This document shows, in pieces, positions 18,608-54,622 of a stretch of DNA of 64,000 bases. Source of the DNA: Agromyces archimandritae (lineage in GTDB: Bacteria > Actinomycetota > Actinomycetes > Actinomycetales > Microbacteriaceae); contig NZ_CP071696.1 in the NCBI RefSeq assembly GCF_018024495.1, positions 3,038,001 to 3,102,000 of the forward strand. The letters are read 5' to 3'. Below the pieces are notes generated by a model that made no database searches, had not been told where the DNA came from, and saw only the letters and a program-made list of their open reading frames with translations. How positions within the stretch are numbered: the stretch's first letter is position 1; the number at the start of each line of letters is the position of its first letter. Both the position numbers and the translations under genes were made by a program.

Positions 18608-20059
18608 ATGGCTGCGCTCGACGACGAGATCAACGCGGGAACCGTATTCGGAGGCACTTGGAGGCATCCGCACGGCGGCACCTACACCGCGCGGGACGCG
18701 GCGACGGGAACGGCGATCGGTACCGTCGGTCTCGCCGACGCCGACGATGTCGCAACAGCCGGTCTCGCTGCTCGCAGTGCCCAGCCGGCATGGGCCGAAC
18801 TCGGCTTCCGCGAACGCGCCGCGGTCATGCACCGCGCCGCCGAATTCCTCGAAGAACTCCCACGCGAAGACCGGCTGCTGCTCCAGCGGGAGGAAGGGGC
18901 GATCGCCGCGAAGGTGAACGGCGAGATCCACAAGTCGGCCGAGGAGCTCCGCGCGGCTGCGAGCCTTCTCGAACAGCCCTACGGCGACCTGCTGCCGAAC
19001 GAGGACCCGACCATCCTCTCCATGGCCCGCCGCGTGCCCGCCGGCGTCATCGGCGTCATCGCCCCTTGGAATGCGCCCATGCTCCTGGCGATGCGCAGCG
19101 TCGCTCCGGCGCTCGCGCTCGGCAACGCCGTCATCCTGAAACCCGACGTGAAGACCGCGATCTCCGGCGGCATCGTGATCGCCAAGGCGTTCGAGGCCGC
19201 GGGCCTGCCGGCCGGTGTGCTGCACGTCCTCCCGGGCGGGCCGGAAACCGGCGAGGCCGTCGTCGCCTCGCCGCATACCGACGTCATCTCCTTCACCGGA
19301 TCGACGGCGGCCGGCCGCCGCGTCGGCGAGGTCGCCGGCCGGCTGCTGAAGAAAGTCGTCCTCGAACTCGGCGGCAACAACGCGCTCATCGTGCTCGACG
19401 ACGCTGACCTCGACGAGGCCGTGTCGGCAGCGCTCTCGGGGTCCCTCCTGCACAACGGCCAGATCTGCATGGCCACCGGCCGGCACCTCGTGCACGACTC
19501 GATCGCCGACGAGTACACGAGACGCCTCTGCGAGGCCGTCGCGGCGATGAAGGTCGGAGACCCGACGGACCCGGCGACGCGGGTCGGGCCGCTCATCAGC
19601 GAGAAGCAGGCAGAACGGGTGGCGTCGATCGTCGGCCAGGCCGTCGCCGACGGAGCACGGGTGCTCGTCGGTGGGGAGCGGTCCGGCCCCTTCTACACCC
19701 CGACGGTGCTGGGCGATGTCGACCCCGGCAACGCCGCCTTCGAGAACGAGATCTTCGGTCCCGTGCTGCCAGTCACCAGCTTCTCGGACGACGACGAGGC
19801 CGTGCGGTGGACGAACGCCAGCGAATACGGGCTCTCGGCGGCCGTCCACACCGGCGACCTGACCCGCGGGCTCGCTCTCGCCGCGCGTGTGCGGACCGGC
19901 ATGGTCCACATCAACGGCATGACCATCAACGACGCGCCCCACGTCCCCATGGGCGGCGTCGGCCAGTCGGGCAACGGCGGCCGCTACGGCGGCCACTGGA
20001 ACCTCGACGAGTTCACCAGCTGGCAATGGGTGACGGCGCGCGGCCCGCGACGCGACTGA
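18608..20059 (+). CDS. Aldehyde dehydrogenase, benzaldehyde/vanillin type (set A)
   Basis: This 483-residue NAD(P)-dependent aldehyde dehydrogenase oxidises aldehydes to acids. The catalytic Cys is 287 (NGQICMATGRH), the general base Glu 253 (LELGGNN), and the cofactor-site motif IAPWNAP is at 151-157. The N terminus (GGTWRHPHGGTYTARDAATG) and the SFTGSTAAGRR stretch are typical of benzaldehyde and vanillin dehydrogenases. It opens the aromatic island and precedes a P450 gene. A second copy at 37245-38696 aligns without a gap through the catalytic Cys, so a duplication is clear. Confidence 0.93.
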   Translation: MAALDDEINAGTVFGGTWRHPHGGTYTARDAATGTAIGTVGLADADDVATAGLAARSAQPAWAELGFRERAAVMHRAAEFLEELPREDRLLLQREEGAIAAKVNGEIHKSAEELRAAASLLEQPYGDLLPNEDPTILSMARRVPAGVIGVIAPWNAPMLLAMRSVAPALALGNAVILKPDVKTAISGGIVIAKAFEAAGLPAGVLHVLPGGPETGEAVVASPHTDVISFTGSTAAGRRVGEVAGRLLKKVVLELGGNNALIVLDDADLDEAVSAALSGSLLHNGQICMATGRHLVHDSIADEYTRRLCEAVAAMKVGDPTDPATRVGPLISEKQAERVASIVGQAVADGARVLVGGERSGPFYTPTVLGDVDPGNAAFENEIFGPVLPVTSFSDDDEAVRWTNASEYGLSAAVHTGDLTRGLALAARVRTGMVHINGMTINDAPHVPMGGVGQSGNGGRYGGHWNLDEFTSWQWVTARGPRRD

Positions 20060-20100
20060 CCCGACCACGACCCCTCGACCCCTCGACCCTAGGAACGACC

Positions 20101-21282: not shown

Positions 21283-21292
21283 GGCGAAGGGG

Positions 21293-22336
21293 ATGCGCAG
21301 CAGCTGGGCCTCCGGCCCGTACGAGATCGCGATCGCGGAGGTCGAGGAGCCGACGATCCTCGACCCGCACGACGTCGTCGTCGACATCGCCTATGCCGCG
21401 ATCTGCGGATCCGACCTGTGGCCGTATCGCGGCCTGGTGCCCAAGCACGCCGCCGGCAGCACCGGTCATGAGTTCCTCGGCGTCGTCAGCGAGGTCGGCG
21501 CCGAGGTCGTCGGGTTCCGCATCGGCGACGCCGTGATCGCCCCCTTCATGCATGCCGACGGCAGATGCCCCGAGTGCCGGGGCGGCCTGCCGTCGCAGTG
21601 CGCGCAGGGCGGGCTCTGGGGCCGTGACGGCGCCGGTGCGCAGGCGGAACGGATCCGGGTGCCGCACGCCGATGCGACGCTCGTGGCCTTGCCATGGACC
21701 TTCGGCGAGCTCGACGACGAGCTTGCGAGGCGACTGCTGCCGCTCGCGGACGTGTTCGCGACGGGCTACCACGGGGCGATCCTCGCCGGCGTCTCACCGG
21801 GCGACACGGTCGCCGTGGTCGGCGACGGCGCCGTCGGGATCTCGGCTGCCGTCGGGGCTCGGAAACTGGGGGCGGCGCGCGTGCTGCTGCTCGGGGAGCA
21901 GGAGGATCGGCTGAGGATCGCCGAGGGATACGGGGTCGAGACGGTCCAGGTCACCCGGGATGAGCCCGGACCGGAGCAGTTCGTCGCCCGTCACCCGGAG
22001 CTGCGCGTCGACCGGGTCGTCGAGGCCGTCGGCATGCAGGCCGCGTTCGACACCGCGCTCGGCATCGTCCGCATCGGCGGGAGCGTCGGATTCGTCGGAG
22101 TGCCGCACGCGGTCGACCCGGTGCCTCCGATGCAGTTGTTCGGCAAGGCGCTGCATCTGGCCGGCGGTACCGCCCCGGCCAGGGTCTACCTCGACCGCTT
22201 CGTCGCCGAGACCGCAGCCGGGCAGCTCGACATGTCGCCGCTCATCGATCTCGTGCTGCCGTTCGACGAGATCGCAGCCGGCTACGAGGCGATGCACACC
22301 GGTGCCGCCCTGAAGGTCGGATTGCGGGTGCGCTGA
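21293..22336 (+). CDS. Zinc-dependent alcohol dehydrogenase
   Basis: This 347-residue medium-chain dehydrogenase has the catalytic zinc ligands in ICGSDLW (Cys) and GSTGHEFLG (His-Glu). The usual four-cysteine structural zinc lobe seems reduced to CPECRGGLPSQC. The NAD(P) fold is VAVVGDGAVGISAAVGARKLG (about residue 180). It would oxidise an alcohol, perhaps an aryl carbinol, feeding the aldehyde dehydrogenase two genes upstream. ATG 21293 starts 10 bases after the P450 stop, so the three genes form an operon ending at a strong hairpin. Confidence 0.9.
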   Translation: MRSSWASGPYEIAIAEVEEPTILDPHDVVVDIAYAAICGSDLWPYRGLVPKHAAGSTGHEFLGVVSEVGAEVVGFRIGDAVIAPFMHADGRCPECRGGLPSQCAQGGLWGRDGAGAQAERIRVPHADATLVALPWTFGELDDELARRLLPLADVFATGYHGAILAGVSPGDTVAVVGDGAVGISAAVGARKLGAARVLLLGEQEDRLRIAEGYGVETVQVTRDEPGPEQFVARHPELRVDRVVEAVGMQAAFDTALGIVRIGGSVGFVGVPHAVDPVPPMQLFGKALHLAGGTAPARVYLDRFVAETAAGQLDMSPLIDLVLPFDEIAAGYEAMHTGAALKVGLRVR

Positions 22337-22348
22337 TCGGGTCTGGGG

Positions 22349-22380
22349 CGGAAGCGGGGGTCTGCGGACCCCCGCTTCCG
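22349..22380. terminator. Bidirectional intrinsic terminator hairpin
   Basis: CGGAAGCGGGGGTC-TGCG-GACCCCCGCTTCCG is a perfect 14-pair stem with a 4-base loop. It lies between the stops of the converging alcohol dehydrogenase and flavin hydroxylase genes. It has no long T run, as usual in high-GC actinobacteria. Confidence 0.8.
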
Positions 22381-22396
22381 TGTGCCCCGGGGCGGG

Positions 22397-23989
22397 TCAG
22401 GCCTCGTAGCCGATCGCGATGCGGAGCGCCGGGGCGGCGTCTTCATCGCTCGCACCGGCCCAGGCCACGAAGTGGTCGGGGCGCACGAGCACGAACGGTG
22501 CGTCGTACGCCGCCGCCGTCGCCGCGTCGACACCGATCGCCCGGATCGGCACCCCGAGCCTGGCAGCGACTGCGACGAAGGCGTCGGGCGCCGTGCCCGG
22601 CGCGTACAGCACCCCGAACCCCCGGCCGAGGGCGCCGAACAGCTCGGCTCCGGATGCCGTCGACCCGGGGGCGAGATGATGGCCGGCCCGCGCGCGCATC
22701 TCGTGCGCGCCCACCGCGCTCGGTCGGCCTACGGCATCCACCACCGGGGATCCGGTGTAGTGCGGCTCGAATCGATCGACCTCGTCGACGGCGTCGCTCG
22801 TGCGCGCCGCCCAGGCGCGTTCGAAGGCACCGCGGTCGCGATCGGGGTGGAACGCCGCGAGGAATCGGCGATCGTCGAGGATCGACTGCTCGATGAAATG
22901 ATCGCGCGTGGCCGCGAAGACCGGGCGCCGCTCCAGGTCGTAGGAGTCGAGCAGGGCCGGTCCGGCCCACCCGTGCAGTTCGGCGGCCAGCTTCCATCCG
23001 AGGTTCCTGGCGTCCTCGAAGCCCGAGTTGATGCCGTACCCGCCATAGGGCGGATGGCTGTGCGCGGCGTCGCCGGCGACGAGGATCCGGCCGCTGCGGT
23101 AGGTGTCGGCGAGCGTGAACCGCAGATCCCAGAACCCGAGGTACTGCGTCTCGAATGCGATCGGGCGGCCGATCGCCCGTGCGAGCACGGCCGACAGGTC
23201 GAGGGACTCGGCGGTCGTGCCGGCGGGGACGGGGCAGTGGAAGAACCAGGTCTCGCTCGCGTCGACGCGGCCGAAGAACTGCCAGTAGCCCTCGAGGTCC
23301 TCGTTCATGACGTTCGCGAACGCCGTGTCGGGGAAGCGTTCCATGACCCGGTCGAACTCCGCCGAGCGGAACACCGCGAGCACCATGCGGCGGTCGTGGT
23401 CCGCGCGCGTCTGGGAGATCCCCGCGCCGTCGCGGACCAGGGATCCGCTGCCGTCGGCCGCGACGACGTAGTCGGCGATCACGTCGAGGGAGGCGCCCGT
23501 CGCCCGCGAGACCGCGCGCACCCGTGCGGAGTCCGCCTCCTGCGAGACCTCCGTCGCCGCCCACTCCCAGAGCGGGCTGACGGCGTCGAGCTCCGCGACC
23601 CGCTCGCGCAGCACCGACTCGGTGCGATACTGCGGCAGGCGCATATTGGGCGCGGCGTAGTAGGCGCCGACGCTGTCGCGCCGCAGCCACGGGTAGGCGT
23701 AACCGCTGAACAGGGAGCCGTAGGCCGTCATACCGGCTGAGCGCTGCGCCGCGGTCATCGTCCGTGCGGCGACGAGGCGCTCGTCGAGCCCCCAGAAGCG
23801 GAAGTGCTCGACCGTCCGCTGCGTGAGGTTCTGGCCTTTCGGCACCGGCTGCGGTGAGGCGTGCTTCTCGATGAGCACGACGTCCACGCCTTCCTGGGCG
23901 AGGGTGATGGCGACGGCGGAGCCGACGGGTCCGCCGCCGACGACGGCGACCCGAGTGCGCAGGGTGCCGCTCTCGCCCCGTTCAGACAC
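22397..23989 (-). CDS. FAD-dependent aromatic hydroxylase (class A, PheA/MhpA fold)
   Basis: This 530-residue flavoprotein hydroxylase has GGGPVGSAVAITLAQEGVDVV near residues 15-35, the NADPH/FAD motif VVAADGSGSLVR (about 165) and GRILVAGDAAHSHPPYGGYGINSGFEDARNLGWKL (about 290, read in segments). A C-terminal thioredoxin-like domain follows. KGQNLTQRTVEHFRFWG is a signature of hydroxylases in aromatic clusters. GTG 23989 is the chosen start and overlaps the end of the ferredoxin gene by 8 bases. Substrate not predictable, but a phenolic acid fits the setting. Confidence 0.88.
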   Translation of the reverse strand: MSERGESGTLRTRVAVVGGGPVGSAVAITLAQEGVDVVLIEKHASPQPVPKGQNLTQRTVEHFRFWGLDERLVAARTMTAAQRSAGMTAYGSLFSGYAYPWLRRDSVGAYYAAPNMRLPQYRTESVLRERVAELDAVSPLWEWAATEVSQEADSARVRAVSRATGASLDVIADYVVAADGSGSLVRDGAGISQTRADHDRRMVLAVFRSAEFDRVMERFPDTAFANVMNEDLEGYWQFFGRVDASETWFFHCPVPAGTTAESLDLSAVLARAIGRPIAFETQYLGFWDLRFTLADTYRSGRILVAGDAAHSHPPYGGYGINSGFEDARNLGWKLAAELHGWAGPALLDSYDLERRPVFAATRDHFIEQSILDDRRFLAAFHPDRDRGAFERAWAARTSDAVDEVDRFEPHYTGSPVVDAVGRPSAVGAHEMRARAGHHLAPGSTASGAELFGALGRGFGVLYAPGTAPDAFVAVAARLGVPIRAIGVDAATAAAYDAPFVLVRPDHFVAWAGASDEDAAPALRIAIGYEA

Positions 23990-25701: not shown

Positions 25702-26679
25702 ATGTCGGATCACTCACCGGGGGCGATGGCCGCGACCCAAGACGGGTTCAAGCAGGCCGCACGGCGGTTCGCGAGCGGGGTCACGGTCGTCACCACCAGG
25801 CTCGACGACGACACCGTCCACGGCATCACGGTCTCCTCGTTCGCGAGCCTGTCGATCAACCCGCTGCTGATCACCGTGTCGCTCATGTCCGAGAGCCGGA
25901 TGCTCGGACTCGTCAAGGACTCGCAGCGATTCGCCGTCAGCATCCTGGGCGAGGACCAGCAGGACGTCTCCGCCTACTTCGCCACGCGCGGCAGGCCGGA
26001 GGCCAAAGGCGGCTTCGACGGGATCCGCACCGTCGCCGGCATCACCGGCTCGCCGATCGTCGACGGGGCCGTCGCCTACTTCGACTGCGAAGTCCACGAG
26101 ATCGTCGCCGGCGGCGACCACGAGATCCTCGTCGGCAGCGTCGTGGCGACCGGCGGCAGCAGCGGCAAGCCGCTCCTCTACTACGACGGCGACTACCGCA
26201 GTCTTCCCGGCGACGACGACCGCCTCGCAGACGGCGTGCGGATGCAGGTGCGCCTCGCCGGCCTCGAGACCGGCGAGATCCTCGAGACCCAGTCGGCGAT
26301 GGATCCCGCCGTCGCTGCGCTCGCCGCCGCGCATGCGACGGCCGAGGACCTCGAGGAGCTGCAGCGTCTGCTCGACGAGGAGGCGGCGGCGATCGGCGAC
26401 CAGGTGGGCTTCACCAGGGTCGGGATGGACTTCCACGTCGCGCTCGCGAAGGCGTCGAAGAACCGTTTCCTCCACGCCTCCCTCGAAGCACTGCAGCGCG
26501 AACGGCAGCTGCTGTTCGCACCGCGCAACGAGATCGCGAAGTCGCACCGCTCGCACGACTACCACCTCCGCCTCGTCGACGCGATCGCCGCCGGCGATCC
26601 GCAGGCGGCACGGGCCCTCATGGCCGAGCACGTCGGCGTGATCGGCGAAGGCCTGCAATCGGAGCTTCAGGTCCGCTGA
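25702..26679 (+). CDS. Flavin reductase fused to an FCD (FadR C-terminal) sensor domain
   Basis: This 325-residue protein is a two-domain fusion. Residues 10-168 are a flavin reductase of the HpaC/DIM6 type (FKQAARRFASGVTVVTT, ITVSSFASLSINP, RFAVSILGEDQQ). Residues 180-325 match a complete FCD ligand-binding domain (MDFHVALAKASKNRFL with His245, then HLRLVDAIAAGDPQAARALMAEHV with His288 and His310). The winged helix that normally precedes FCD is absent. It should supply reduced flavin to the HpaB-type oxygenase next door, with the FCD sensing substrate. The C1 reductase of Acinetobacter 4-hydroxyphenylacetate hydroxylase has a comparable C-terminal sensor of a different (MarR-like) fold. Confidence 0.85.
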   Translation: MSDHSPGAMAATQDGFKQAARRFASGVTVVTTRLDDDTVHGITVSSFASLSINPLLITVSLMSESRMLGLVKDSQRFAVSILGEDQQDVSAYFATRGRPEAKGGFDGIRTVAGITGSPIVDGAVAYFDCEVHEIVAGGDHEILVGSVVATGGSSGKPLLYYDGDYRSLPGDDDRLADGVRMQVRLAGLETGEILETQSAMDPAVAALAAAHATAEDLEELQRLLDEEAAAIGDQVGFTRVGMDFHVALAKASKNRFLHASLEALQRERQLLFAPRNEIAKSHRSHDYHLRLVDAIAAGDPQAARALMAEHVGVIGEGLQSELQVR

Positions 26680-26725: not shown

Positions 26726-28219
26726 ATGACGGACACGTATGCGAAGACGCAGTTCGAACAGGTGCTGCTGACCAGCGGCCTGGGCGCCCTCACGGGGGAG
26801 CGGTACAAGGAGTCCCTCCGCGACGGACGGGAGGTGTGGCTGAACGGCGAACGCATCGAGGACGTCACCGTGCACCCGGCGTTCAAGGGCACCGTCGACC
26901 GGCTCGCCGAACTCTACGACCTGCAGCACAGCGAGGGGCTGCGGGACGTGATGACCTACGTCGACGAGGACTCCGGCATCCGGCTCAGCAAGTCCTACCT
27001 GCTGCCGCGCACCCTCGACGAGCTCAAGGAGAAGTACGCCAACAGCCACGCCTGGATGCAGAACACCTGGGGGCAGCTCGGCCGCTCGCCGGACTACATG
27101 GCGAACGTCGTCGTCGGCCTCTACGACTTCAGGGATGAGCTCGAGGGCAACCGCGAGGGCTTCGGCCAGAACGCCGTCGACTACTGGAAGCACTGCGCAT
27201 ACAACGATCTCGCGCTCACGCACGCCCTCGGCGACCCACAGATCGACCGCAGCAAGTCCGTCCTCGACGACCCAGATCAAGGCCTCAGGATCATCGAGGA
27301 GCGCGAGGACGGCATCGTCGTCCGCGGCGCCAAGCAGCTCGCCACCCTCGCACCCCTCTCGAACGAGGTGCTCTCATACCTCTCCGCGAGCTTCGCCGTC
27401 CGCGAGGCCGAGGAGTTCGTCCTCTGGTTCGCGCTGCCGATGAACACGCCCGGTTTGAAGATCCTCTGCCGCGAACCCCTCGGCGACCACGAGTGGGGCC
27501 ACGGGCATCCATTCGCCCGTCAGTACGACGAGCAGGACTCGATGCTGTTCTTCGACGACGTGTTCATCCCGTGGCAGCGGGTCTTCCTGATGCACGACGG
27601 CCCGCTGGCGCTGACCGGGCTGCGCCGCATCACCCCGTGGGCCGGCTACAGCTCGCACATCAGGTTCGAGCAGCGCATGAAGACCTACCTCGGCGTGGCT
27701 TCCCTCGTGGCGGACTCCATCGGCGTCTCCGGCTTCCGCAACATCCAGGAACAGCTCGGCGAGATGACCTCCGTCGTCGAGATCGCGCGCTTCCTGACCC
27801 TCGCGACCGAGGCCCAGCACACGACGACCTCGGGCGGGCTCGTCGCGCCGGTCAGCTCGCCGGCCGTCGGCGTCTACTCGGCCAACATCTCGGGGCGGAT
27901 GCAGGAGATCCTGCGGCGGATCGCGGCCTCGGGCATGCTCATGCAGCCCAGCCAGGCCGACCTCGACAGCGAGGAGCTCCGGCCCTTCCTCGAGAAGTAC
28001 ATGAAGGGCGCCGACGGCATGGGCGTCGACGAGAAGGCCCGGATCTTCCGGCTCGCCTGGGATCTCGCCGGCGACGGTTTCGGGCAGCGCCAGGAGCTGT
28101 ACGAGTTCCTGCACCGCGGCGACGTCACCCGCAACCTGATCGGCCTGTACCACCGCTACGACAAGTCCGATCTGATCGGGCGGATCAAGACCATGGTCTC
28201 CGCACCCCTGCCGGAGTAA
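26726..28219 (+). CDS. HpaB-type flavin-dependent monooxygenase
   Basis: This 497-residue protein belongs to the 4-hydroxyphenylacetate 3-hydroxylase large-component family, which uses free FADH2 and oxygen to hydroxylate phenols. The family's acyl-CoA-dehydrogenase-like fold shows in the N-terminal LTGERYKESLRDGREVWLNGERI, the middle VRGAKQLATLAPLSNE and FFDDVFIPWQRVF, and the helical C terminus. The partner reductase lies 46 bases upstream. Expected products would be catechol or trihydroxybenzene acids. Exact substrate unknown. It heads the run Rieske, small protein, amidohydrolase. Confidence 0.9.
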   Translation: MTDTYAKTQFEQVLLTSGLGALTGERYKESLRDGREVWLNGERIEDVTVHPAFKGTVDRLAELYDLQHSEGLRDVMTYVDEDSGIRLSKSYLLPRTLDELKEKYANSHAWMQNTWGQLGRSPDYMANVVVGLYDFRDELEGNREGFGQNAVDYWKHCAYNDLALTHALGDPQIDRSKSVLDDPDQGLRIIEEREDGIVVRGAKQLATLAPLSNEVLSYLSASFAVREAEEFVLWFALPMNTPGLKILCREPLGDHEWGHGHPFARQYDEQDSMLFFDDVFIPWQRVFLMHDGPLALTGLRRITPWAGYSSHIRFEQRMKTYLGVASLVADSIGVSGFRNIQEQLGEMTSVVEIARFLTLATEAQHTTTSGGLVAPVSSPAVGVYSANISGRMQEILRRIAASGMLMQPSQADLDSEELRPFLEKYMKGADGMGVDEKARIFRLAWDLAGDGFGQRQELYEFLHRGDVTRNLIGLYHRYDKSDLIGRIKTMVSAPLPE

Positions 28220-28253
28220 CCCGGACGTCCCGCATTTCGCAAGAGGAGTGAAC

Positions 28254-28649
28254 ATGACAACAGGCACACCCACCGTCCAGGCCACGAAACGGGTCCACGT
28301 GGGATCGGAGGCCGAGTTCGAGGAGGGCTCGCGCAAGATCGTCGAGGTCGACGGCAAGCGCGTCGGCGTCTTCAAGTACCGCGGGAAGTACCGCGCCTAC
28401 CTGAACGTCTGCCTGCACCAGGGCGGGCCCGTGTGCGAGGGGAAGTACTTTCCCCGCACCACCGCCGAAGTCAACGACGGCGGCGAGCTCATCAAAGAGG
28501 GCTCCGACTTCGACTCGGCCCATCTCGTCTGCCCCTGGCACGGGTGGGAGTACGACCTGGCGACCGGCGAGCACGTCGCCGACAGCTCGTACGCCCTGAA
28601 GAAGTACACGGTCACCATCGAGGACGGAGACGTTTATGTTCAGCAGTGA
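28254..28649 (+). CDS. Rieske [2Fe-2S] protein with long inter-box insert (set A)
   Basis: This 131-residue Rieske protein has box 1 Cys53-Leu-His55 (CLHQGGPVCEG) and box 2 Cys93-Pro-Trp-His96 (CPWHGWEY). The boxes are 37 residues apart, against about 15-20 in ordinary Rieske ferredoxins, so the cluster-binding loop carries an acidic insert. The paralogue at 50913-51281 has the same insert. ATG 28254 follows AAGAGGAG. It is probably an electron carrier for a neighbouring oxygenase. HpaB enzymes do not need one, so the amidohydrolase is a candidate client. Confidence 0.9.
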   Translation: MTTGTPTVQATKRVHVGSEAEFEEGSRKIVEVDGKRVGVFKYRGKYRAYLNVCLHQGGPVCEGKYFPRTTAEVNDGGELIKEGSDFDSAHLVCPWHGWEYDLATGEHVADSSYALKKYTVTIEDGDVYVQQ

Positions 28650-28968
28650 GACGACCACCATCGACCAGGGCACCATCGCCGAGCTGGCCGATCGCATCGA
28701 GGCGTTCGACGCCGGCGCCGTGGTCGCCGACCTCCCGGTGGAAGAGGTGCAGCGGATCTTCACCGCCGCGTTCCACCTGTACGCCCGGCTCGCCGAAGAG
28801 CGCAGCATCGGCGATCCGTTCACCCAGGTGAACGAGATCACCGCCACCCAGGTCGTGACCACGGCGCTCGCGATCCTGCACTCGCAGAACCTCGAGGTGT
28901 TCGAACTCGCGCTGTGGCAGTCCTGGGGAGGAACCCCCTGGAAGAACGAGAAGGAAGAAGCCAAGTGA
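28636..28968 (+). CDS. Small helical protein of unknown family (set A)
   Basis: This 110-residue acidic, all-helical protein has no family I recognise. A pattern near the C terminus (TATQVVTTALAILHSQNLEVFELALWQSW) recurs in the 103-residue protein at 50605-50916 (NATETVVLVTALLDAADVNLFDMAIWYRR), so the two are paralogues. It overlaps the Rieske gene by 14 bases and the amidohydrolase start by four, implying stoichiometric co-synthesis. The constant company of a Rieske protein and an amidohydrolase suggests a subunit or coupling protein. Confidence 0.75.
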   Translation: MFSSETTTIDQGTIAELADRIEAFDAGAVVADLPVEEVQRIFTAAFHLYARLAEERSIGDPFTQVNEITATQVVTTALAILHSQNLEVFELALWQSWGGTPWKNEKEEAK

Positions 28969-46246: not shown

Positions 46247-47374
46247 ATGTTCTCATCCTCCCGTCGCCGGGGCGTCCTGGCCGGCATCTCCCTCGCGGCT
46301 GCGGTCGCGGCGCTGACCGCCTGCTCCGGCGGAGCCGGCGCAGTCACCAAGAGCTCGGATCCGGTCGAAGTGCCGGGGGCGTCGAGCGAGGTGAACGCCT
46401 ACCTCAACGAGCTCTACGACCGGGCCTTCGAGGACGACAAGACCGAGATCGTGATCTACGGCCCCTCCGTCAGCACCTCGAAGCCGATGTTCGACGCATT
46501 CTCCGAGCGCTTCCCCGGCATCACCGTGCTGCCGCAGGACGCCCCCGACTCGCAGACCCTCACGAAGCTCGAGGCCGAAGCGCAGACCGGCAGCAGGGTC
46601 GCGGATCTCTTCACCGGCGGCGGACCGACGACCGCCCAGGCGGCCGCCGAACCGGGCATCTGCACCAACGCCGAGATCAAGACGGCGCCGGCGGACTTCG
46701 AGGTCCCCTACGCCAACGACGGACGTCTACTGCCCTTCGCCTACCGCTACTTCACGTTCATCTACAACACCGATGCGGTGGACGAGGCCGAGGCGCCGAA
46801 GACCTGGGAGGAACTGCTCGACCCGAAGTGGACGGGCAAGCTCGTCATCGGCGACCCGACGGTCGCCGGCGGTCTGCGCTACCTCCTCGCGGGCCTGCAG
46901 GCGCCCGAGGCCGAGGACGAGTTCGGGGAGGCCTACCTCCGGAAGCTCATCGAGCAGGACCTCGTGATCGGCACGAGCGAGTCGGCGGTGCCGGCCGACG
47001 TCGCTGCCGGTCGGGGCGACGTCGGGATCGGCGTCTTCTCGGGGTACTACGCGGTGCAGAAGGCGAAGGGCGCCCCGCTCGGGATCGTCTTCCCGCTCGA
47101 AGACGGCGGCAACTTCCTCACCACCTCCTCCGTCTGCTACATCGAGGACGCTCCGCACGCGGACGCCGCTCTCCTCTACCTGAACTGGCTGTTCACGGAG
47201 GAGGGTCAGGAGACTCTCGCCGAGGTCGACGGCTCGTACGGGATCCTCCCGGGTTCGCCCGGCCCGCTCGGTGCGCCGGCGTTCGACTCGCTCGAGCGGC
47301 TGCCGTTCTCGAATCCCGATCCCGAGTTCAACAAGCCGTACTTCGCGGTGGTCGACGAGCTGTTCAAGAAGTAA
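46247..47374 (+). CDS. ABC importer substrate-binding lipoprotein (set B)
   Basis: This 375-residue lipoprotein has lipobox LTAC with Cys26. The mature protein is an AfuA/Fe(III)-type binding fold (EIVIYGPSVSTSKPMFDAF, DLFTGGGPTT, YFTFIYNTDAVDEAEAPKTWEELLDPKW, read in segments). Residues FAYRYF and GYYAVQ supply several tyrosines, closer to an iron pocket than in the set A protein. An organic ligand is still plausible in this setting. GAAAGGAACG precedes ATG 46247. Confidence 0.9.
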   Translation: MFSSSRRRGVLAGISLAAAVAALTACSGGAGAVTKSSDPVEVPGASSEVNAYLNELYDRAFEDDKTEIVIYGPSVSTSKPMFDAFSERFPGITVLPQDAPDSQTLTKLEAEAQTGSRVADLFTGGGPTTAQAAAEPGICTNAEIKTAPADFEVPYANDGRLLPFAYRYFTFIYNTDAVDEAEAPKTWEELLDPKWTGKLVIGDPTVAGGLRYLLAGLQAPEAEDEFGEAYLRKLIEQDLVIGTSESAVPADVAAGRGDVGIGVFSGYYAVQKAKGAPLGIVFPLEDGGNFLTTSSVCYIEDAPHADAALLYLNWLFTEEGQETLAEVDGSYGILPGSPGPLGAPAFDSLERLPFSNPDPEFNKPYFAVVDELFKK

Positions 47375-47403: not shown

Positions 47404-48591
47404 ATGACCGAGGTCCGGGTATCCGGCATGACCAAGAAGTACGGGTCGAAGCCCGCCATCCACGGCCTGGATGTGACCATCCGCTCGGGGGAGTTCGTGA
47501 CGCTGCTCGGGCCGTCCGGCTGCGGCAAGACGACGACCCTGCGCTGCATGGCCGGCCTCGAGCGGCCGAGCTCCGGCAGCATCGCGATGGGGGAGCGTAC
47601 CGTGGTCGACGTCGCGAACGGCGTGTTCGTGCCGCCCGAGAAACGGCACGTCGGCATGGTGTTCCAGAGTTATGCGCTGTGGCCGCACATGAGCGTCGAC
47701 GAGAACGTCGCCTATCCGTTGAAGGTCGCCGGCGTCCGCGGCGGGGAGCGCCGTGCGCGTCTGGCCGAGGCGCTCGCCGCGGTCGGTCTCGCCGAGTTCG
47801 GCGACCGGCCGGTGACGGCGCTGTCGGGCGGCCAGCAGCAGCGGGTGGCCCTCGCGCGCGCCCTCGCGGCCAGGCCGAGCGTGATCTTCTACGACGAGCC
47901 GCTCTCGAACCTGGACTCGAAGCTCCGGTACGCGATGGGCCAGCAGGTGCGCTCTCTGCACGACCGGTACGAGACGACCTCGGTGTACGTGACCCACGAT
48001 CAGGAGGAGGCCATCACCCTCTCGGATCGGATCATCGTCATGAACAACGGGCGGATCGAGCAGGACGGCACGCCTGAGGAGCTCTACGACCGGCCGCGCA
48101 CGGCGTATGTGGCGGACTTCATGGGCTTCTCGAACATCGTGACCGGCACCGTGGTCGGCTCCGGCAGCGGGCTCGTCGACCTCCGGGTCGACGGTGCGGA
48201 TCTCGTGCTGCGGGGCTTCGCGGCCGAGGCACCGGGCAGCGGGGCGCGTGCCGCACTGGCGTTCCGGGCCTCGCACGTCCACATCGACGATCGCGATTCG
48301 CGTCGGCCTGGCTCGTTCGACGCGACGGTGGTGCGTTCGACGTTCCTCGGCAGCGCCGTGAATCTCCTCCTGGATGCGAACGGCCTGACCGTGCGTGCGC
48401 GGATCGAGCGTGCGGAGCTCGAGCGGCTCGGGATGGATCGGCCGGCGGCGGGGGCGGTGCTGCCGTTCTCGGTGAGCGGGTCCGGCGCCGTGATCGTTCC
48501 GTCCGAGGAGGCGGGGGCGGCCGATGCCGGGCCTGCGGATGAGGATGCGGAGCTCGCCGTCGTCGCAGAGCGCCATGCCGTGACCGTCTGA
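47404..48591 (+). CDS. ABC importer ATPase, FbpC/PotA-like (set B)
   Basis: This 395-residue ATPase has Walker [10 protein letters not shown] (38-46), Q-loop [10 protein letters not shown], signature LSGGQQQR, Walker [13 protein letters not shown] and [13 protein letters not shown]-type C-terminal domain ends in an acidic tail of about 30 residues ([17 protein letters not shown]) not seen in the set A copy. It powers the permease of the same operon. It converges with a GntR gene after 7 bases. Confidence 0.94.
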
Positions 48592-48598
48592 ACAGGGC

Positions 48599-49261
48599 TC
48601 AGCGCGCCGCGGCGCCGAGTCTGCCGAGGTGGGCGTGCATCGCCGCCGCGGCGGCCTCGGCGTCGTGTCGTTCGACGGCGTCGACGATCCGCGCGTGTAT
48701 CTCGGTGACGCTCGCCACCGTGGCCGCGGTCGTCTCGGGGGCGAAGCGGCGGCGCTGCGCGGCGCGCATGGCCCGGACCGAGGCGGTGAGCGGCCGGTTT
48801 CCGGCGATCTCGGCGAGAGCGAGGTGGAAGTCGAGCGCGGCCTCGGTGAACTCTGTCGCCTCGTCGCTGCCCGGCGCCTGGGCGACGATCGCGCGCAGGC
48901 GTGCGACGTCGTCGGGGGTCGCGGCCTCGGCCGCGAGGCCGGCGAGGGCCGGTTCGATGATGTGCATCGCGTCGACGAGTTCGCGCCAGGAGACGTCCTC
49001 GAGGTAGAGCTGGGTCGAGAGGGCGTCGGCGACGATGTCGGGCCTGCCTGCAGCGACGCGCAGCCCTCCGCTGACGCCGACGGCGACCTCGACGAACCCC
49101 TCGGATTCGAGCACGCGTACGGCGTCGCGCATGGTGATGCGGCTGACGCCGAAGCGTTCGGCCAGCTGCGTCTCGGTGCCGATCCGGTCGCCCGGGCGCA
49201 TGCCGTCGAAGATCTCTTCGCGCAGTCGCTGGGCGATGAGCTGGCGTCCCGGGATGCGCAT
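48599..49261 (-). CDS. GntR/FadR-family regulator (set B)
   Basis: This 220-residue regulator has a winged helix in residues 5-70 (LIAQRLREEIFDGMRPGD, LAERFGVSRITMRDAVRVLESEGFVEV) and an FCD domain in 80-215 (ALDFHLALAEIAGNRPL, then EIHARIVDAVERHDAEAAAAAMHAHL). It is divergent from the amidohydrolase-small protein-Rieske operon, with an ACAGTT-n7-AACTGT repeat between them, its likely operator. It is similar in plan to the set A GntR at 36448. Confidence 0.92.
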   Translation of the reverse strand: MRIPGRQLIAQRLREEIFDGMRPGDRIGTETQLAERFGVSRITMRDAVRVLESEGFVEVAVGVSGGLRVAAGRPDIVADALSTQLYLEDVSWRELVDAMHIIEPALAGLAAEAATPDDVARLRAIVAQAPGSDEATEFTEAALDFHLALAEIAGNRPLTASVRAMRAAQRRRFAPETTAATVASVTEIHARIVDAVERHDAEAAAAAMHAHLGRLGAAAR

Positions 49262-49354: not shown

Positions 49355-50605
49355 ATGGCCGAACCCGAGCCGCCGGCGATCACGGAGCTGGCAGAGATCA
49401 ACGGCACATCCGATAGCCGGGATGTGCTCGCCCATGCGACTGTGCAAGCGCAGCAGTCCTACGACGATTACTTCGTGGTCGACATCGACGCCCACGTGTC
49501 GGAGGACCACTTCTGGGACGAGGTACTCTCCCTGGTCGACAACGACTACTGGCGAGACCTCGGCATGACCCAGTTCGAAGGCTTCGGCGGCAAGAACGCC
49601 CTGCTGAACATCACCCCGGGCATGTCGCAGCAATCGGTCGGAGGCAGGATCGGCCACCAGGGGCGTCGTGAGCCCGTCGCCGGCGTCGACGGGCATCCCT
49701 TCGTCACCGCGGCCGGCCGCGGCATGGACTCGATGGGCCTCGACTACCAGGTCGTGTTCCCGAGCGCGATGCTGCTGCTCGGCATGCACCCGCAGACCGA
49801 GGTCGAGGTGGCCCTCGCCCGGGCGTTCAACCGCTGGCTGACCGAGGTGATCCTGCCGCAGGACCCGCGGCTGAAGGGCATGCTCTACCTGCCCTACAAC
49901 ACCCCCGAGGCGTGCGAGGAACTCGTCGAGCGCTATGCCGACAACGACGACATCATCGGCTACACGGTGTGTTCGACGCGCAACAACCCCGTGCACTCCG
50001 ATGTGTACCTGCGCCTGTACTCGCTCATCCAGGACAGCGGCAAGCCCCTCGCCTTCCACTCCGGGTATCACTGGGGCGATCCGTCCTTCGCCCAGTTGAA
50101 CCGCTTCCTCTCGATGCATGCGCTCTCGTTCACGCACTACAACCAGATCCACGTCACGAACTGGATCATCAACGCCATGCCCGAACGCTTCCCGACGATC
50201 AAGATGCTGTGGGTCGAGAGCGGCCTCGCGTGGATCCCGTTCCTCATGCAACGCCTCGACCACGAAGTGCTCATGCGCCCGAGCGAAGCGCCGGGGCTGA
50301 CGCGGCTGCCGAGCGAGTACATGAAGGAGATGTGGTACACGACACAGCCGATGGAACGGACCGACATGGAGCTGCTCGAGGCGACGATGAAGTCGTTCAA
50401 CGCGGAGACGCAGCTGCTGTACTCCTCCGACTGGCCGCACTGGGACTGGGACGCTCCGTCCACCATCACGAACCTGCCGTTCCTCTCGGAGCACGCCAAA
50501 CGCAACATCCTCGGGCTGAACGCGGCGAGGCTCTTCAACCTGCCGACCGAACGGGTCAAGCCCTCGGCCGCATCCGTACTCGACGCTCGACCCGGGAGAT
50601 CCTGA
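49355..50605 (+). CDS. Amidohydrolase-2 family metalloenzyme (set B)
   Basis: This 416-residue paralogue of the enzyme at 28965 conserves Asp45 and His47 (DIDAHVSE), His235 (AFHSGYHW), His266 (QIHVTNWI) and Asp359 (SSDWPHWD). The long shared stretches (NRWLT, VESGLAWIPF, LPSEYMK, TTQPME) show they catalyse similar chemistry. Unlike set A it has no HpaB-type gene next to it, yet the small protein and Rieske gene still follow. It is therefore the partner that always travels with them. ATG 49355 follows GAAGGAG. Confidence 0.86.
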   Translation: MAEPEPPAITELAEINGTSDSRDVLAHATVQAQQSYDDYFVVDIDAHVSEDHFWDEVLSLVDNDYWRDLGMTQFEGFGGKNALLNITPGMSQQSVGGRIGHQGRREPVAGVDGHPFVTAAGRGMDSMGLDYQVVFPSAMLLLGMHPQTEVEVALARAFNRWLTEVILPQDPRLKGMLYLPYNTPEACEELVERYADNDDIIGYTVCSTRNNPVHSDVYLRLYSLIQDSGKPLAFHSGYHWGDPSFAQLNRFLSMHALSFTHYNQIHVTNWIINAMPERFPTIKMLWVESGLAWIPFLMQRLDHEVLMRPSEAPGLTRLPSEYMKEMWYTTQPMERTDMELLEATMKSFNAETQLLYSSDWPHWDWDAPSTITNLPFLSEHAKRNILGLNAARLFNLPTERVKPSAASVLDARPGRS

Positions 50606-50916
50606 TGACCGATGCGATGGTGAAGGACGAGCGGATCGCCGCCCTCGAAACGGCCGTGGCAGCCCTGCGCGACGCGACCGAGGCGGTCGTCGAGGGGCGC
50701 CTCGGCGCCGAACTCGACGACGCCGACATCGCGGCGCCCCTGTACGCGGCCGCGCGCCTGTTCTCGGCGAAGATCGACCGAGTCGGCAAGATCGCCTGGC
50801 CGATCGAGACGGATGCGCTCAACGCGACCGAGACGGTCGTGCTCGTCACCGCCCTCCTCGACGCGGCCGACGTGAACCTGTTCGACATGGCGATCTGGTA
50901 TCGGAGAGCCGAATGA
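50605..50916 (+). CDS. Small helical protein of unknown family (set B)
   Basis: This 103-residue helical protein is a paralogue of the one at 28636, most alike in LNATETVVLVTALLDAADVNLFDMAIWYRR. The first half is alanine-rich and predicted coiled or helical (IAALETAVAALRDATEAVVEG). It overlaps the amidohydrolase stop by one base and the Rieske start by four. No catalytic residues stand out, so it is more likely a structural or effector subunit than an enzyme. Confidence 0.75.
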   Translation: MTDAMVKDERIAALETAVAALRDATEAVVEGRLGAELDDADIAAPLYAAARLFSAKIDRVGKIAWPIETDALNATETVVLVTALLDAADVNLFDMAIWYRRAE

Positions 50917-51281
50917 GCAGGCGTGAGGTGACCGTCGCGAGTCTGGCCGAGCTGCACGAACGCGGCCGGATCGTCGTGTCGATCGACGGCACGGAGCTCG
51001 GCCTGTACAGCCATGCCGGCGAGATCCGGGCCTGGCGGAACCTCTGCCCGCACCAGGGAGGCCCTGCCTGCCAGGGCAAGTTCCTGCCGCGGACGATCGA
51101 GGTCGTCGACGATGCCAAGCGTGCCGCACCCGGGATCTCCTCCGAGCACAAGTCGATCGTGTGCCCATGGCACGGCTTCGAGTTCGACGTTCTGACGGGG
51201 CGTCACGTCGTCGACGAGCGGGTGCACCTGATCGCGGTGCCGATCCGTTCGCAGGGCGACGAGGTGATCGTCTCGATCTGA
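50913..51281 (+). CDS. Rieske [2Fe-2S] protein with long inter-box insert (set B)
   Basis: This 122-residue Rieske protein has box 1 Cys45-Pro-His47 (CPHQGGPACQG) and box 2 Cys84-Pro-Trp-His87 (CPWHGFEF). It has the same long gap (36 residues) as the set A protein, including the shared GK-FPRT/GKFLPRT turn. It should accept electrons from the ferredoxin reductase encoded convergently just downstream and pass them to an oxygenase. It is last in its operon, followed by a very strong hairpin. Confidence 0.9.
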   Translation: MSRREVTVASLAELHERGRIVVSIDGTELGLYSHAGEIRAWRNLCPHQGGPACQGKFLPRTIEVVDDAKRAAPGISSEHKSIVCPWHGFEFDVLTGRHVVDERVHLIAVPIRSQGDEVIVSI

Positions 51282-51287
51282 ACGGAC

Positions 51288-51327
51288 GCGAAAGGGCGCC
51301 CCGGCCTCGGCCGGGGCGCCCTTTCGC
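51288..51327. terminator. Strong bidirectional terminator
   Basis: GCGAAAGGGCGCCCCGG with its complement CCGGGGCGCCCTTTCGC forms a perfect stem of at least 17 pairs around a CCTCGG centre. It sits between the converging Rieske and ferredoxin-reductase genes. The CTTTCGC end gives a partial T tract. Confidence 0.9.
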
Positions 51328-51338
51328 ATGTCCGCCCG

Positions 51339-52472
51339 TCAGGCGAGGCCGGCCGCGAGCTTCCGCAGCCGGGGGATCGGCACCCGGCGATTCACCGACA
51401 CGGCCGCGACGGGCCCGGCGTCGTCGCGGAAGCGGATCAGGGCCTGCCCGTCCTCCAGCGACCCTTCGAGGAACTCGGGGCGTGCGGTGCCGATCGCGCC
51501 GCAGATCTTCATGTCCAGCCCCCACTGATCGGTCCAGAAATACGGACGCGACGCGTACTCCTCGGCGGCGTCGCCCAGGAGCAGGGCGCCGGCGGCGACG
51601 CGCGCCTGGTCGATCGCGGCGCCCCAGTGCGGGCTGCGGCGGGCCTGGCCGGTGCGGGCGTCGAGCACGGCGGCGACATCGCCGATCGCGACGATGTCGG
51701 GAGCGACGCGGCATCGTGCATCGGTCTCGATCCCCGTCGGGAGGTCGAGGCCGGCGCCGGCGAGCCATTCGACGTTCGGCAGGTCGCCGACCGCGCTGAC
51801 GACGATATCCGCCTCGTACACCGCGCCGGAGGCGGCGCGCACCCCGGCGAGCGGGCGGGCGTCGAGGAACTCGATGCCGCCCGGCTCCACGACGAGCCGC
51901 ACCCCGCGTGCGGCGGCGGCCGCGGTCATATGCGCCGCGAGGTAGGGGCCGAACTGGCGCTCGAGGTGGGGGATCATGTCGACGACCGTCACCTCGAGGC
52001 CGAGGTCCCGTGCGCTCGACGCGATCTCCATGCCGAGGAAGCCGCCGCCGATGACGAGCATCGACCTCGCGTCGCCGATGCGTTCGCGGAGTCGGAGGCT
52101 GTCGTCGAGATCCCGCACGACGTGCTCCGATCCGTCCGGCAGCAGGCGGCGCGCCCGCGCCCCGGTCGCGATGACGAGGCCGTCGTAGGGCACCTCCTCG
52201 TCGTCGCCCAGGAGCACGCGCTTCCGCTGGCGGTCCAGGCCTCGGGCCGGCGCGTCGAGACGGAGCGTCCAGTGCTCGCCGGCTCCGGCGATGCGCACGC
52301 TCTCCGGCTCCTCGGCGCCCTTCAGCACCGCCTTCGACAGCGGCGGGCGCACGTACGGCGCGTGGGATTCGGCGCTGAGCACGGTGATCGGGCCGTCATG
52401 CCCGAACTGGCGGAGTGCGTCTGCGGCGGTCACCGCCGCGACCGAACCGCCGACGATCACGATCTCGCGCAT
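51339..52472 (-). CDS. NAD(P)H:ferredoxin reductase (oxygenase-coupled type)
   Basis: This 377-residue FAD/NAD reductase of the BphA4/putidaredoxin-reductase family has the FAD fold IVIVGGSVAAVTAADALR (residues 4-21), the NAD fold MLVIGGGFLGMEIASSARDLGLEV (about 138-160), and IVAIGDVAA with a C-terminal dimerisation domain. It passes electrons from NADH to a ferredoxin. Candidate clients in the island are the two Rieske proteins and the 3Fe-4S-type ferredoxin for the P450s. It is the only ferredoxin reductase visible here. Confidence 0.92.
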   Translation of the reverse strand: MREIVIVGGSVAAVTAADALRQFGHDGPITVLSAESHAPYVRPPLSKAVLKGAEEPESVRIAGAGEHWTLRLDAPARGLDRQRKRVLLGDDEEVPYDGLVIATGARARRLLPDGSEHVVRDLDDSLRLRERIGDARSMLVIGGGFLGMEIASSARDLGLEVTVVDMIPHLERQFGPYLAAHMTAAAAARGVRLVVEPGGIEFLDARPLAGVRAASGAVYEADIVVSAVGDLPNVEWLAGAGLDLPTGIETDARCRVAPDIVAIGDVAAVLDARTGQARRSPHWGAAIDQARVAAGALLLGDAAEEYASRPYFWTDQWGLDMKICGAIGTARPEFLEGSLEDGQALIRFRDDAGPVAAVSVNRRVPIPRLRKLAAGLA

Positions 52473-52578
52473 GTGGGGGCCCTCTTTCGAAGCTGCGGGT
52501 GCGGAGTACGCAGCGAGCGTAGATGCTCGCCGTGGCCGGTTCTACGTCGTGTTGGACGAAGCCGGCCGTGCCGTTTTC

Positions 52579-52640
52579 GACACGGTGTCCAAGCGCGTCG
52601 CTGCGCGGCCGGCAGCGACGGCCGATTCCGACGCGGTGTC
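52579..52640. promoter_or_regulatory. Island operator, copies 3 and 4
   Basis: TTCGACACGGTGTCCAAG contains GACACGGTGTC (52579-52589), the exact reverse complement of the core at 40139 and 44323. TCCGACGCGGTGTCCGAT contains GACGCGGTGTC (52630-52640), one change away. Both lie in the divergent gap between ferredoxin reductase and the flavin hydroxylase. Confidence 0.65.
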
Positions 52641-52747
52641 CGATCGGACCCCGGAAACCCGCGACGAATCGCCATGACGACACCGCGGTCGTCGTGGCTA
52701 GCGTGGCGGGGTCGCAGCCGATGATCCGTCACGAGGAGACCTTGAAC

Positions 52748-54622
52748 ATGCCCGTTCCGAACGTTCGCCGACCCGCACTGCTCGATCCGATCGACGAGCG
52801 TGAATGGCCCGAGGAGACGACGGTCGTGATCGTCGGCGGCGGGCCCGTGGGTCTCTCCGCGGCGATCCAGCTCGCCCAGCGCGGCATCGACGTGCTTCTC
52901 CTCGAACGCCGCGACTTCGAGGCCAGGTTCCCGCGCGCGCACCTCTTGAACGTCCGCACCATGGAGGTGTTCCATGCGATGGGGGTCGCCGACGACATCT
53001 ACGCCGGCGGGCCCCAGGACGAACGGTGGCACAAGGTCGTCTGGTTCACCTCGGTCGACGGGCCGACCCAGGCCGACGGCGTGCGCATCGGCGGCGTTCC
53101 GGCCTGGGGCGGCGGCGCGGACGCGAAACGGTATGCGCAGGCGAGCCCCCGGCGTTTCGCCAATCTGCCTCAGCTGCGCCTCGACCCTCTGCTGTACGCC
53201 CACGCGCGTGCGGCCTGCCCGGGCCGCATCCGCAGCGATGTCGAGGTGGTCGGCATCGCGCACGACGACGCCGGCGTCGTCGTCACCGCGATCGAGCGGG
53301 AGAGCGGGCGGCAGCATCGCATCCGGGCCGAGTATGCGATCGTCGCCGACGGCGGACGCTCGAGCGAGGAGCTCCTCGGGGTGACGATGGAGGGTCCGCG
53401 GAACATGCGCGAGGTCGTCAACTACCATGTCCGCACCGACCTCTCGATGTGGGCCGAACCCGATGCGCTCCTCGGGTTCTTCTTCCACCCCTACGGCGGG
53501 CTGCGCCGCATGGGCACGATCCAGGCGCTCGGGCCGAACTCCTACGACCGCGATTCCGAGGAATGGCTCGTGGCCGTGTCGGGGTGGATGCTCGAGGGCG
53601 GTGAGACCGGCGCACTTCCGGCCATCCGGCGCATGCTCGGCCTGCCGGCCGACCACCCGATCGAACTCGTCACCGAGAGCCGATGGGTGTACAACGCGAT
53701 CGTCGCAGACTCGTGGCGCTTCGGTCGGGTCTTCATCGCCGGGGATGCGGCGCACCGGCATCCGCCGACCGGGGGCCTCGGGCTGAACAGCGGGGTGCAG
53801 GACGTCGAGAATCTGGTGTGGAAGCTCGCGGCCGTGCTGAACGGCGACGCCGAGGACGGGCTCCTGGACAGCTACGAGCTGGAGCGGCGCCCGACGACCG
53901 CGTTCTACACGGCCCACTCCCTGGAGAACGCGACCCGGCATGCGCCCATCGGCGAGGCGCTCGGCCTCGGGCCGGACGAGGCGGAGTCCCGTCGCAGCAT
54001 CGCGACGTTCCTCAGCGATACGCCCGAGGGCGAGGAGGTGCGACGCCGCGTCGCCGCCGCCGTGCAGGAGAACGCGCACGATTACAGCCAGCTGAACGTC
54101 GAGGCGGGGTTCTTCTACCGGGCCGGGGCGCTCGTGCCCGACGGTTCGCCGGAGCCGGCCGACGCGGAATCGCCGATCGCGTTCCACCCGACGACGCGAC
54201 CGGGCTCGCACCTTCCGCACCTCTGGCTCGCGCACACGGAGGGGGCTTCGTCGTCCGAGCCGCGGTCGACGCGCGATCTCGTCCGGCCGACCGGGCTCAC
54301 GCTGTTCGTCGGCGCGTCCGCGGCGCCGAGCTGGGCGGAGGCCGCCCGGATGCCCGCAGGCATGCTCCCGGTCGCGGTCGTCGTGATCGACGACGCCGAC
54401 GCCGGCTGGAGTGGGCTGAGCGAGGTCGACGCGGACGGCGCGGTGCTCGTCCGTCCGGATGCGAAGGTCGCCTGGCGTGCCATGACCCTTCCGGCCAATC
54501 CTGCCGCCGCCCTCCGCGAGGCCGTCGCGACGATCGGTGCGGGCGGACTGCGGCCCGACGGCGACCCGGCCGAACCCTCGTTCGAGCGCATCCGCCGCGC
54601 CGCCGCCGTTCTGGCCGAGTGA
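52748..54622 (+). CDS. FAD-dependent phenol-type hydroxylase (TfdB/PheA/MhpA-like)
   Basis: This 624-residue class A flavoprotein hydroxylase has GGGPVGLSAAIQLAQRGIDVLLLERR near residue 35 (read in part), the RAHLLNVRTMEVF block, VADGGRSS (about 205) and FGRVFIAGDAAHRHPPTGGLGLNSGVQDVENLVWKLA (about 330, in segments). A thioredoxin-like C-terminal domain follows. Relatives hydroxylate phenols and chlorophenols with NADPH. ATG 52748 follows GAGGAG at good spacing, better than ATG 52721. The operator copies upstream tie it to the set B regulon. Confidence 0.9.
   Translation: MPVPNVRRPALLDPIDEREWPEETTVVIVGGGPVGLSAAIQLAQRGIDVLLLERRDFEARFPRAHLLNVRTMEVFHAMGVADDIYAGGPQDERWHKVVWFTSVDGPTQADGVRIGGVPAWGGGADAKRYAQASPRRFANLPQLRLDPLLYAHARAACPGRIRSDVEVVGIAHDDAGVVVTAIERESGRQHRIRAEYAIVADGGRSSEELLGVTMEGPRNMREVVNYHVRTDLSMWAEPDALLGFFFHPYGGLRRMGTIQALGPNSYDRDSEEWLVAVSGWMLEGGETGALPAIRRMLGLPADHPIELVTESRWVYNAIVADSWRFGRVFIAGDAAHRHPPTGGLGLNSGVQDVENLVWKLAAVLNGDAEDGLLDSYELERRPTTAFYTAHSLENATRHAPIGEALGLGPDEAESRRSIATFLSDTPEGEEVRRRVAAAVQENAHDYSQLNVEAGFFYRAGALVPDGSPEPADAESPIAFHPTTRPGSHLPHLWLAHTEGASSSEPRSTRDLVRPTGLTLFVGASAAPSWAEAARMPAGMLPVAVVVIDDADAGWSGLSEVDADGAVLVRPDAKVAWRAMTLPANPAAALREAVATIGAGGLRPDGDPAEPSFERIRRAAAVLAE

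Follow-up and report, generated by a model that had tools for sequence, protein, structure and literature searches.

Few amidohydrolase-related dinuclear oxygenases (AROs) have been described. They were originally predicted from Rieske genes lying beside genes of the PF04909 family, the natural substrates of the candidates could not be inferred in the predicting paper as far as its available text goes, and the site of one of them, SfbO, is built from three histidines and three carboxylates (PMC10811679; this and the other papers cited here by accession were available in part). Our analysis of a 64-kb window of the Agromyces archimandritae genome (positions 3,038,001-3,102,000 of its single 3.45-Mb contig; 70.3% GC over the window) finds two probable AROs, the products of genes that we call aroA and aroB, in an island of two parallel gene sets, A and B, between 18.6 and 54.6 kb. 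The gene content supports an island of aromatic type, apparently for the uptake and breakdown of aromatic acids. It is probable that the island is a composite for substituted benzoic acids, in which two modules of different ancestry, each an ABC importer with an oxygenase, are entry modules to a shared route of the LigZ/LigY/RraA type; this substrate class is proposed because of a match to CYP199 P450s and because of the LigY/RraA-type route.

A first-pass annotation of this DNA had reported nine functions that occur twice within 36 kb, and all nine pairs are present, all of them inside 18.6-54.6 kb (Table 1). Pairwise identity between sets ranges from 25 to 74%: aldehyde dehydrogenase (ald) 74%, hydrolase (hyd) 64%, LigB-type dioxygenase (lig) 49%, fused permease (perm) 39%, ATPase (atp) 50%, binding protein (sbp) 31%, GntR-FCD regulator (gnt) 40%, ARO (aro, there called an amidohydrolase) 50%, Rieske ferredoxin (rsk) 39% and the small protein (sml) 25-26%. 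The extras that had been listed for set A (HpaB and P450s, of which there are two, 59% identical and both in A) and for set B (three RraA-type proteins, a ferredoxin reductase and an FAD hydroxylase) are there as well, and four island genes can be added to them: fadA on the minus strand, a Zn-alcohol dehydrogenase, a flavin reductase-FCD fusion and a PucR-type regulator. Of the genes found in 18.6-54.6 kb, several are confined to a single set: the P450 pair, HpaB and the reductase-FCD gene, and likewise the RraA triplet and the ferredoxin reductase. The suggestion that the two sets share late steps would fit the gene counts, since among the island genes found there is one RraA triplet, one ferredoxin reductase and one HpaB/reductase pair.

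The five best Protein Data Bank (PDB) matches of AroA and AroB alike are 8sm6 through 8sm9 and chain B of 6m1w, which we take to be AibH2 (E values with an ARO query run from 2e-39 to 2e-23 for 8sm7, 8sm9, 8sm6 and 6m1w chain B). Structure 8sm6 is SfbO and 8sm7-8sm9 are further candidate AROs (PMC10811679); 6m1w is named in the paper on AibH1H2 (PMC7782822). We aligned 84 ARO open reading frames (ORFs) from 80 loci, the best 80 of at least 469 confirmed candidates, and numbered residues from the R of RELYTRS in AroA. Seven residues, D36, H38, E41, H235, E288, D360 and H363, are invariant in 84/84, the invariance of D360 and H363 being due in part to selection, since both are part of one of the two search patterns that located the loci (the other five are not). 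A candidate pattern of three histidines and three carboxylates is present in both AroA and AroB, while HydA and HydB, in an alignment with the AROs that is loose in places, carry a histidine at the D36 position and an arginine at that of H363. A small Rieske ferredoxin gene lies near each aro gene, and the proteins that had been labelled amidohydrolases are by these resemblances probably AROs, a better name than the earlier one.

Each aro gene is also adjoined by a gene for a companion protein of about 105 amino acids (SmlA, SmlB). SmlA has no Pfam match, neither protein has an NCBIfam match, and the family, which numbers 125 proteins at E 1e-3 with the window's two included, has no precomputed Pfam domain. 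The SmlA-SmlB link is weak pairwise (25-26% identity). A profile of 115 B-type sequences recovers SmlA from 8,885 ORFs at E 1.6e-4, and relatives of SmlA at 1.5e-8 in locus L001 and 1.8e-6 in L002; since SmlA was part of the query by which the 115 were gathered, this profile is not a wholly independent one. The companion lies within 600 bp of the ARO gene in 64 of the 80 loci, or in 68 when L004, L008, L025 and L048 are added by a broader profile, and a Rieske gene lies within 1500 bp in 70, or in 72 with L004 and L008; no locus of the 80 has the companion without the Rieske gene. In 21 whole genomes, selected for carrying an ARO of this clade and searched at E 1e-4 for the companion and E 1e-40 for the ARO, all 23 companions lie 3-410 bp from one of the 23 AROs (two of these AROs have an internal stop, and one of the two, at 410 bp from its companion, is partial). 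Selection by ARO does not exclude companions elsewhere in these genomes, so this exclusive linkage is informative. The companion accompanies AROs in loci of Actinomycetota, Alphaproteobacteria and Acidobacteria. Its AlphaFold model is helical and mediocre (mean pLDDT 69, pTM 0.58), and a PDB profile search with the family gives weak matches only, the best a designed helical barrel at E 0.001. Among the other ARO loci, L044 (a Rhodospirillales metagenome-assembled genome) carries four consecutive ARO genes next to a Rieske and a companion gene (L044:6716-12445). Aminotransferase genes lie near ARO clusters at L070:788-1861 and L001:3817-4917, with thiamine pyrophosphate enzymes also in L001, a possible link to amino-acid substrates there.

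Ring cleavage and the late steps can be followed in the hyd, lig and rraA genes. The best PDB matches of HydA and HydB are to LigY (6e6i, E 9e-97 and 2.5e-103), ahead of LigJ (6dxq for HydA, 1e-58; 7e-60 for HydB) by 125 and 143 bits, respectively, and both share with LigY a stretch, YSLHFI.EET, which LigJ lacks. What had been called LigJ-like hydratases are thus better regarded, on sequence grounds, as nearer to the C-C hydrolase LigY. In their source records some ligB homologues are labelled OH-DDVA oxygenase or 3-O-methylgallate 3,4-dioxygenase; LigA has four PDB matches, all weak and LigZ not among them. At 42315-44262 lie three consecutive diverged RraA paralogues. RraA-type HMG/CHA aldolases have a D/E-x20-R-D/E motif; D/E-x20-R-D is kept in RraA2 (D) and RraA3 (E) and is missing from RraA1. 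The triplet recurs in L001, L002, L034-L036, L039 and L070, with RraA1 lacking the motif in all seven, and rraA1-type ORFs of L104 and L105 do hold E/D-x20-R-E matches. A route of 4,5-cleavage of protocatechuate or gallate, in which the aldehyde dehydrogenases would make oxalomesaconate by oxidising the semialdehyde formed on ring cleavage and HydA and HydB would be LigJ-type hydratases feeding RraA-type CHA aldolases, would account for the co-occurrence of ald, hyd, lig and rraA genes in L070, L034-L036, L039 and L101, for LigJ as the second-best PDB match of both Hyd proteins and for the score of RraA3 with a CHA-aldolase model (153 bits, short of the 179 set as cut-off). We nevertheless think this route rather unlikely, given how much nearer HydA and HydB are to LigY in score and in the YSLHFI.EET stretch.

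Several observations weigh against the composite island with AROs that we prefer. With AroA as PDB query the described ARO PtmU3 (2e-12) ranks below three decarboxylases, and the metal-binding residues are assigned from alignments. Four of the 80 ARO loci have a Rieske gene and no detectable companion, eight (some on short contigs) have neither, and ARO loci elsewhere have neighbours of no evident aromatic role (10 proteins at five loci). The island proteins scanned include no plant-type ferredoxin that could serve the P450s, nor was a separate hydratase identified that would act on the LigY product. Near the ARO trio of L001-L003 lies a weak second amidohydrolase-type match (48-64 bits), perhaps comparable to AibH1, so the oxygenase may need further parts. 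The proposal that the paired proteins are ordinary decarboxylases or hydrolases, and that the Rieske ferredoxins serve the P450s, draws on decarboxylases of the same Pfam family that match AroA above PtmU3 (4icm 2e-16, 3s4t 6e-15) and on the lack of any other P450 electron donor among the island proteins scanned; we regard it as improbable, since the ARO residue pattern is kept, the top five PDB matches are AROs, and ARO, companion and Rieske genes occur together in 68/80 loci whereas a P450 like those of the window was detected in one (L075, 107 bits).

The ancestry of the A and B copies was analyzed by approximately unbiased (AU) tests of A+B sisterhood on quick trees of 11-24 rows each (24 of 86 rows for aro, 24 of 74 for rsk, 22 of 25 for hyd and all rows for the remaining genes), after removal of six own-genome loci and seven duplicates, together with short pieces and rows identical to others. 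Sisterhood is rejected for aro (1e-43), perm (4e-40), sbp (2e-38), atp (4e-5) and rsk (5e-4) and more weakly for lig (p 0.016) and gnt (p 0.048); fadA/fadB, which was not a pair of the first-pass annotation, gives 2e-6. Sampling is thin (11-14 rows) for the lig, atp, gnt and fad trees. Sisterhood of hydA and hydB is not rejected (p 0.09), and aldA and aldB are sisters (FastTree 0.97; quick-tree support 93, not starred). AroA is nearest Spongiactinospora and Rhizohabitans in the trees, AroB is nearest Microbacterium, Saccharopolyspora, Amycolatopsis and Specibacter, and the A and B copies of perm, atp and sbp are split among lineages in the same manner. It had been said that the duplication could be read from the sequence, and pair-by-pair trees had been proposed as its test; in them most A/B pairs separate and have their nearest relatives in different lineages, the aldehyde dehydrogenases excepted. 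Most paired genes thus appear to be largely of different origins and not copies of each other, and the ald pair alone looks like a local duplicate. That one ancestral island was duplicated, then diverged and was shuffled, which the 74% identity and sisterhood of AldA and AldB and the unrejected sisterhood of HydA and HydB would allow, is very improbable in the face of the AU rejections and of importer and oxygenase genes whose A and B copies have nearest relatives in different lineages.

The composite structure can be compared with related loci in other genomes. The first-pass annotation knew of no pathway on record with precisely this content; limited searches of the open-licence literature likewise showed none, which is weak evidence. 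A version of one set with most of the content and no P450s is present in Specibacter cremeus (L070), where importer, ARO, companion, Rieske, aldehyde dehydrogenase, HpaB, hyd, lig, rraA1-3 and reductase-FCD genes and the start of an FAD hydroxylase gene lie on one strand. In four Aminobacter loci the place of Specibacter's aldehyde dehydrogenase and HpaB is taken by a FadB-like hydroxylase. Genes hyd and lig are adjacent in three genomes of one genus; in 20-kb stretches of two of these (L101 and L102) importer genes, rraA2, rraA3, ald and fadB are present too and no ARO was detected, so the ring-cleavage core can stand without an ARO gene, and the AROs give the impression of an entry module added to it. 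The ARO genes occur in 1/60 genus genomes at E 1e-60 (this genome alone), which is consistent with acquisition, and in 2/394 class genomes at E 1e-80; hydA-like genes occur in 16/394 class genomes at E 1e-60 (both class counts include this genome). A gene at the left edge of the window (819-2330) is present in 59/60 genus genomes at E 1e-100, and an acyl-CoA synthetase gene of the right flank in 3/60 at the stricter E 1e-200. Towards the left end of the window, at 3497-3571, is a tRNA-Gln gene.

The best PDB matches of P450b are CYP199 (9g9q, E 1e-91) and CYP199A4 (4dnz, E 1e-85); the CYP199 assignment is that of P450b, and P450a is tied to it by 59% identity. The CYP199A family demethylates para-methoxybenzoate and veratrate (PMC11530827), with which the methoxy- and hydroxybenzoate substrates suggested in the first-pass annotation, predicted from sequence as they are, would agree. 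In L109 a P450 gene (372 bits) lies beside genes for an aldehyde dehydrogenase, a Hyd of 39% identity and an rraA3-type protein. A search with the flavin reductase-FCD fusion gives 146 proteins at E 1e-20, and each of the 120 that were listed, itself among them, has the two domains; no paper on such a fusion surfaced in a limited search of the open-licence literature. In Acinetobacter AbHpaC the corresponding domain is of the MarR type, and self-inhibition is relieved when substrate binds to it (PMC10816480); the FCD domain may, by analogy, gate the supply of reduced flavin to HpaB. Riboflavin/lumichrome catabolism, suggested by the combination of P450 and Rieske genes, was considered and set aside, as its gene list looks different in the available text (PMC12746152).

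In the scheme that we propose, the ARO, companion and Rieske ferredoxin of each set would form a three-component monooxygenase, with one ferredoxin reductase for both. Electrons from NADH would reach a dinuclear Fe/Fe or Mn/Fe site of the ARO, and a ring substituent would be hydroxylated or dealkylated; in set A the CYP199-type P450s may also remove para-methoxy groups. The resulting phenol would be converted to a catechol by HpaB with the FCD-gated flavin reductase (A) or by FadB (B), the catechol opened by the putatively LigZ/DesZ-like dioxygenases and the product split by the LigY-like hydrolases, and the single RraA triplet would split the last oxo-acid to pyruvate-level products. Methane monooxygenase has a coupling or effector protein. 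We advance tentatively, as possible and somewhat short of probable, the further idea that a distinct ARO clade is an obligate three-part enzyme (oxygenase, companion of the methane monooxygenase-effector type, and Rieske ferredoxin), which would carry out side-chain or ether oxidation in actinobacteria and Aminobacter where known lignin-acid pathways use Rieske oxygenases or P450s, the FCD-gated flavin reductase tying a second hydroxylation to the same effector. The island adds two probable AROs whose gene neighbourhood points to aromatic acids as substrates and whose companion tracks AROs, and it offers testable hypotheses for the substrate and third component; the ARO reading would also correct the automatic "amidohydrolase" label for this clade.

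Table 1. Genes of the A. archimandritae island (window coordinates) and the basis of their assignment
Feature	Position	Strand	Basis
aldA, aldehyde dehydrogenase (set A)	18608..20059	+	PF00171
p450a, cytochrome P450	20101..21282	+	PF00067; 59% identical to p450b
Zn-dependent alcohol dehydrogenase	21293..22336	+	PF08240/PF00107
fadA, FAD-dependent ring hydroxylase type (FAD_binding_3)	22397..23989	-	PF01494; GTG start guessed
p450b, CYP199-type cytochrome P450	24408..25583	+	PDB matches to CYP199/CYP199A4
Flavin reductase fused to FCD ligand-sensing domain	25702..26679	+	PF01613 + PF07729
HpaB-type two-component flavin monooxygenase	26726..28219	+	PF11794/PF03241
rskA, Rieske ferredoxin	28248..28649	+	PF00355
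smlA, 110-aa ARO companion protein	28636..28968	+	No Pfam/NCBIfam match; adjoins AROs
aroA, probable ARO	28965..30206	+	PF04909; PDB matches; residue pattern
hydA, LigY-like meta-cleavage-product hydrolase	30219..31232	+	LigY 6e6i over LigJ 6dxq
ligA, type II extradiol dioxygenase (LigB superfamily)	31266..32276	+	PF02900
permA, fused ABC permease	32280..34067	+	Two PF00528 stretches
atpA, ABC ATPase	34071..35174	+	PF00005, PF08402
sbpA, solute-binding protein	35189..36316	+	PF01547/PF13343
gntA, GntR-FCD regulator	36448..37158	+	PF00392, PF07729
aldB, aldehyde dehydrogenase (set B)	37245..38696	-	PF00171
PucR-type regulator	38882..40081	-	PF13556
hydB, LigY-like hydrolase	40273..41277	+	LigY 6e6i over LigJ
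ligB, type II extradiol dioxygenase	41302..42318	+	PF02900
rraA1, RraA-type, no acidic residue at D/E-x20-R-D position	42315..42986	+	PF03737
rraA2, RraA-type with D-x20-R-D	42983..43633	+	PF03737
rraA3, RraA-type with E-x20-R-D	43630..44262	+	PF03737
permB, fused ABC permease	44472..46223	+	PF00528
sbpB, solute-binding protein	46247..47374	+	31% identity to sbpA; weak PhnS-type matches
atpB, ABC ATPase	47404..48591	+	PF00005
gntB, GntR-FCD regulator	48599..49261	-	PF00392, PF07729
aroB, probable ARO	49355..50605	+	PDB matches; residue pattern
smlB, 103-aa ARO companion protein	50605..50916	+	No NCBIfam match or precomputed Pfam domain; profile
rskB, Rieske ferredoxin	50913..51281	+	PF00355
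Ferredoxin reductase, probable electron donor to the Rieske ferredoxins	51339..52472	-	PF07992, PF14759
fadB, FAD-dependent ring hydroxylase type	52523..54622	+	PF01494, PF21274; true start probably downstream

The probable AROs of the island resemble the described ones (AibH1H2-AibG-AibF, SfbO and PtmU3) in the PF04909 domain, the residue pattern and the small adjoining Rieske ferredoxin (PMC10811679; PMC7782822; PMC10401708). They differ from them in having the companion, which is not mentioned in the available parts of those three papers, and in their placement in aromatic ring-cleavage clusters, and no AibH1-like partner was recognised in the trios of the window. With the LigXacd-LigZ-LigY dehydrodivanillate route of Sphingobium SYK-6 (PMC12997858) the island shares a LigY-like hydrolase and a dioxygenase of which some relatives bear the name OH-DDVA oxygenase. 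Unlike that route it has no Rieske oxygenase alpha-subunit domain (LigX or vanillate type) among its Pfam-scanned proteins, and it has ABC importers, HpaB/FadB and three RraA-type proteins. P450b is like the CYP199A family (CYP199A4, PbdA) in sequence, but the island has two P450 copies beside an ARO route, and no PbdB-like reductase was noticed among the proteins scanned. Finally, its reductase-FCD protein is like the C1 protein AbHpaC in the fusion of a flavin reductase to a repressor-type ligand domain, which in AbHpaC gates the reductase (PMC10816480); the match to C1 spans the reductase half only, and the island protein carries FCD instead of MarR.

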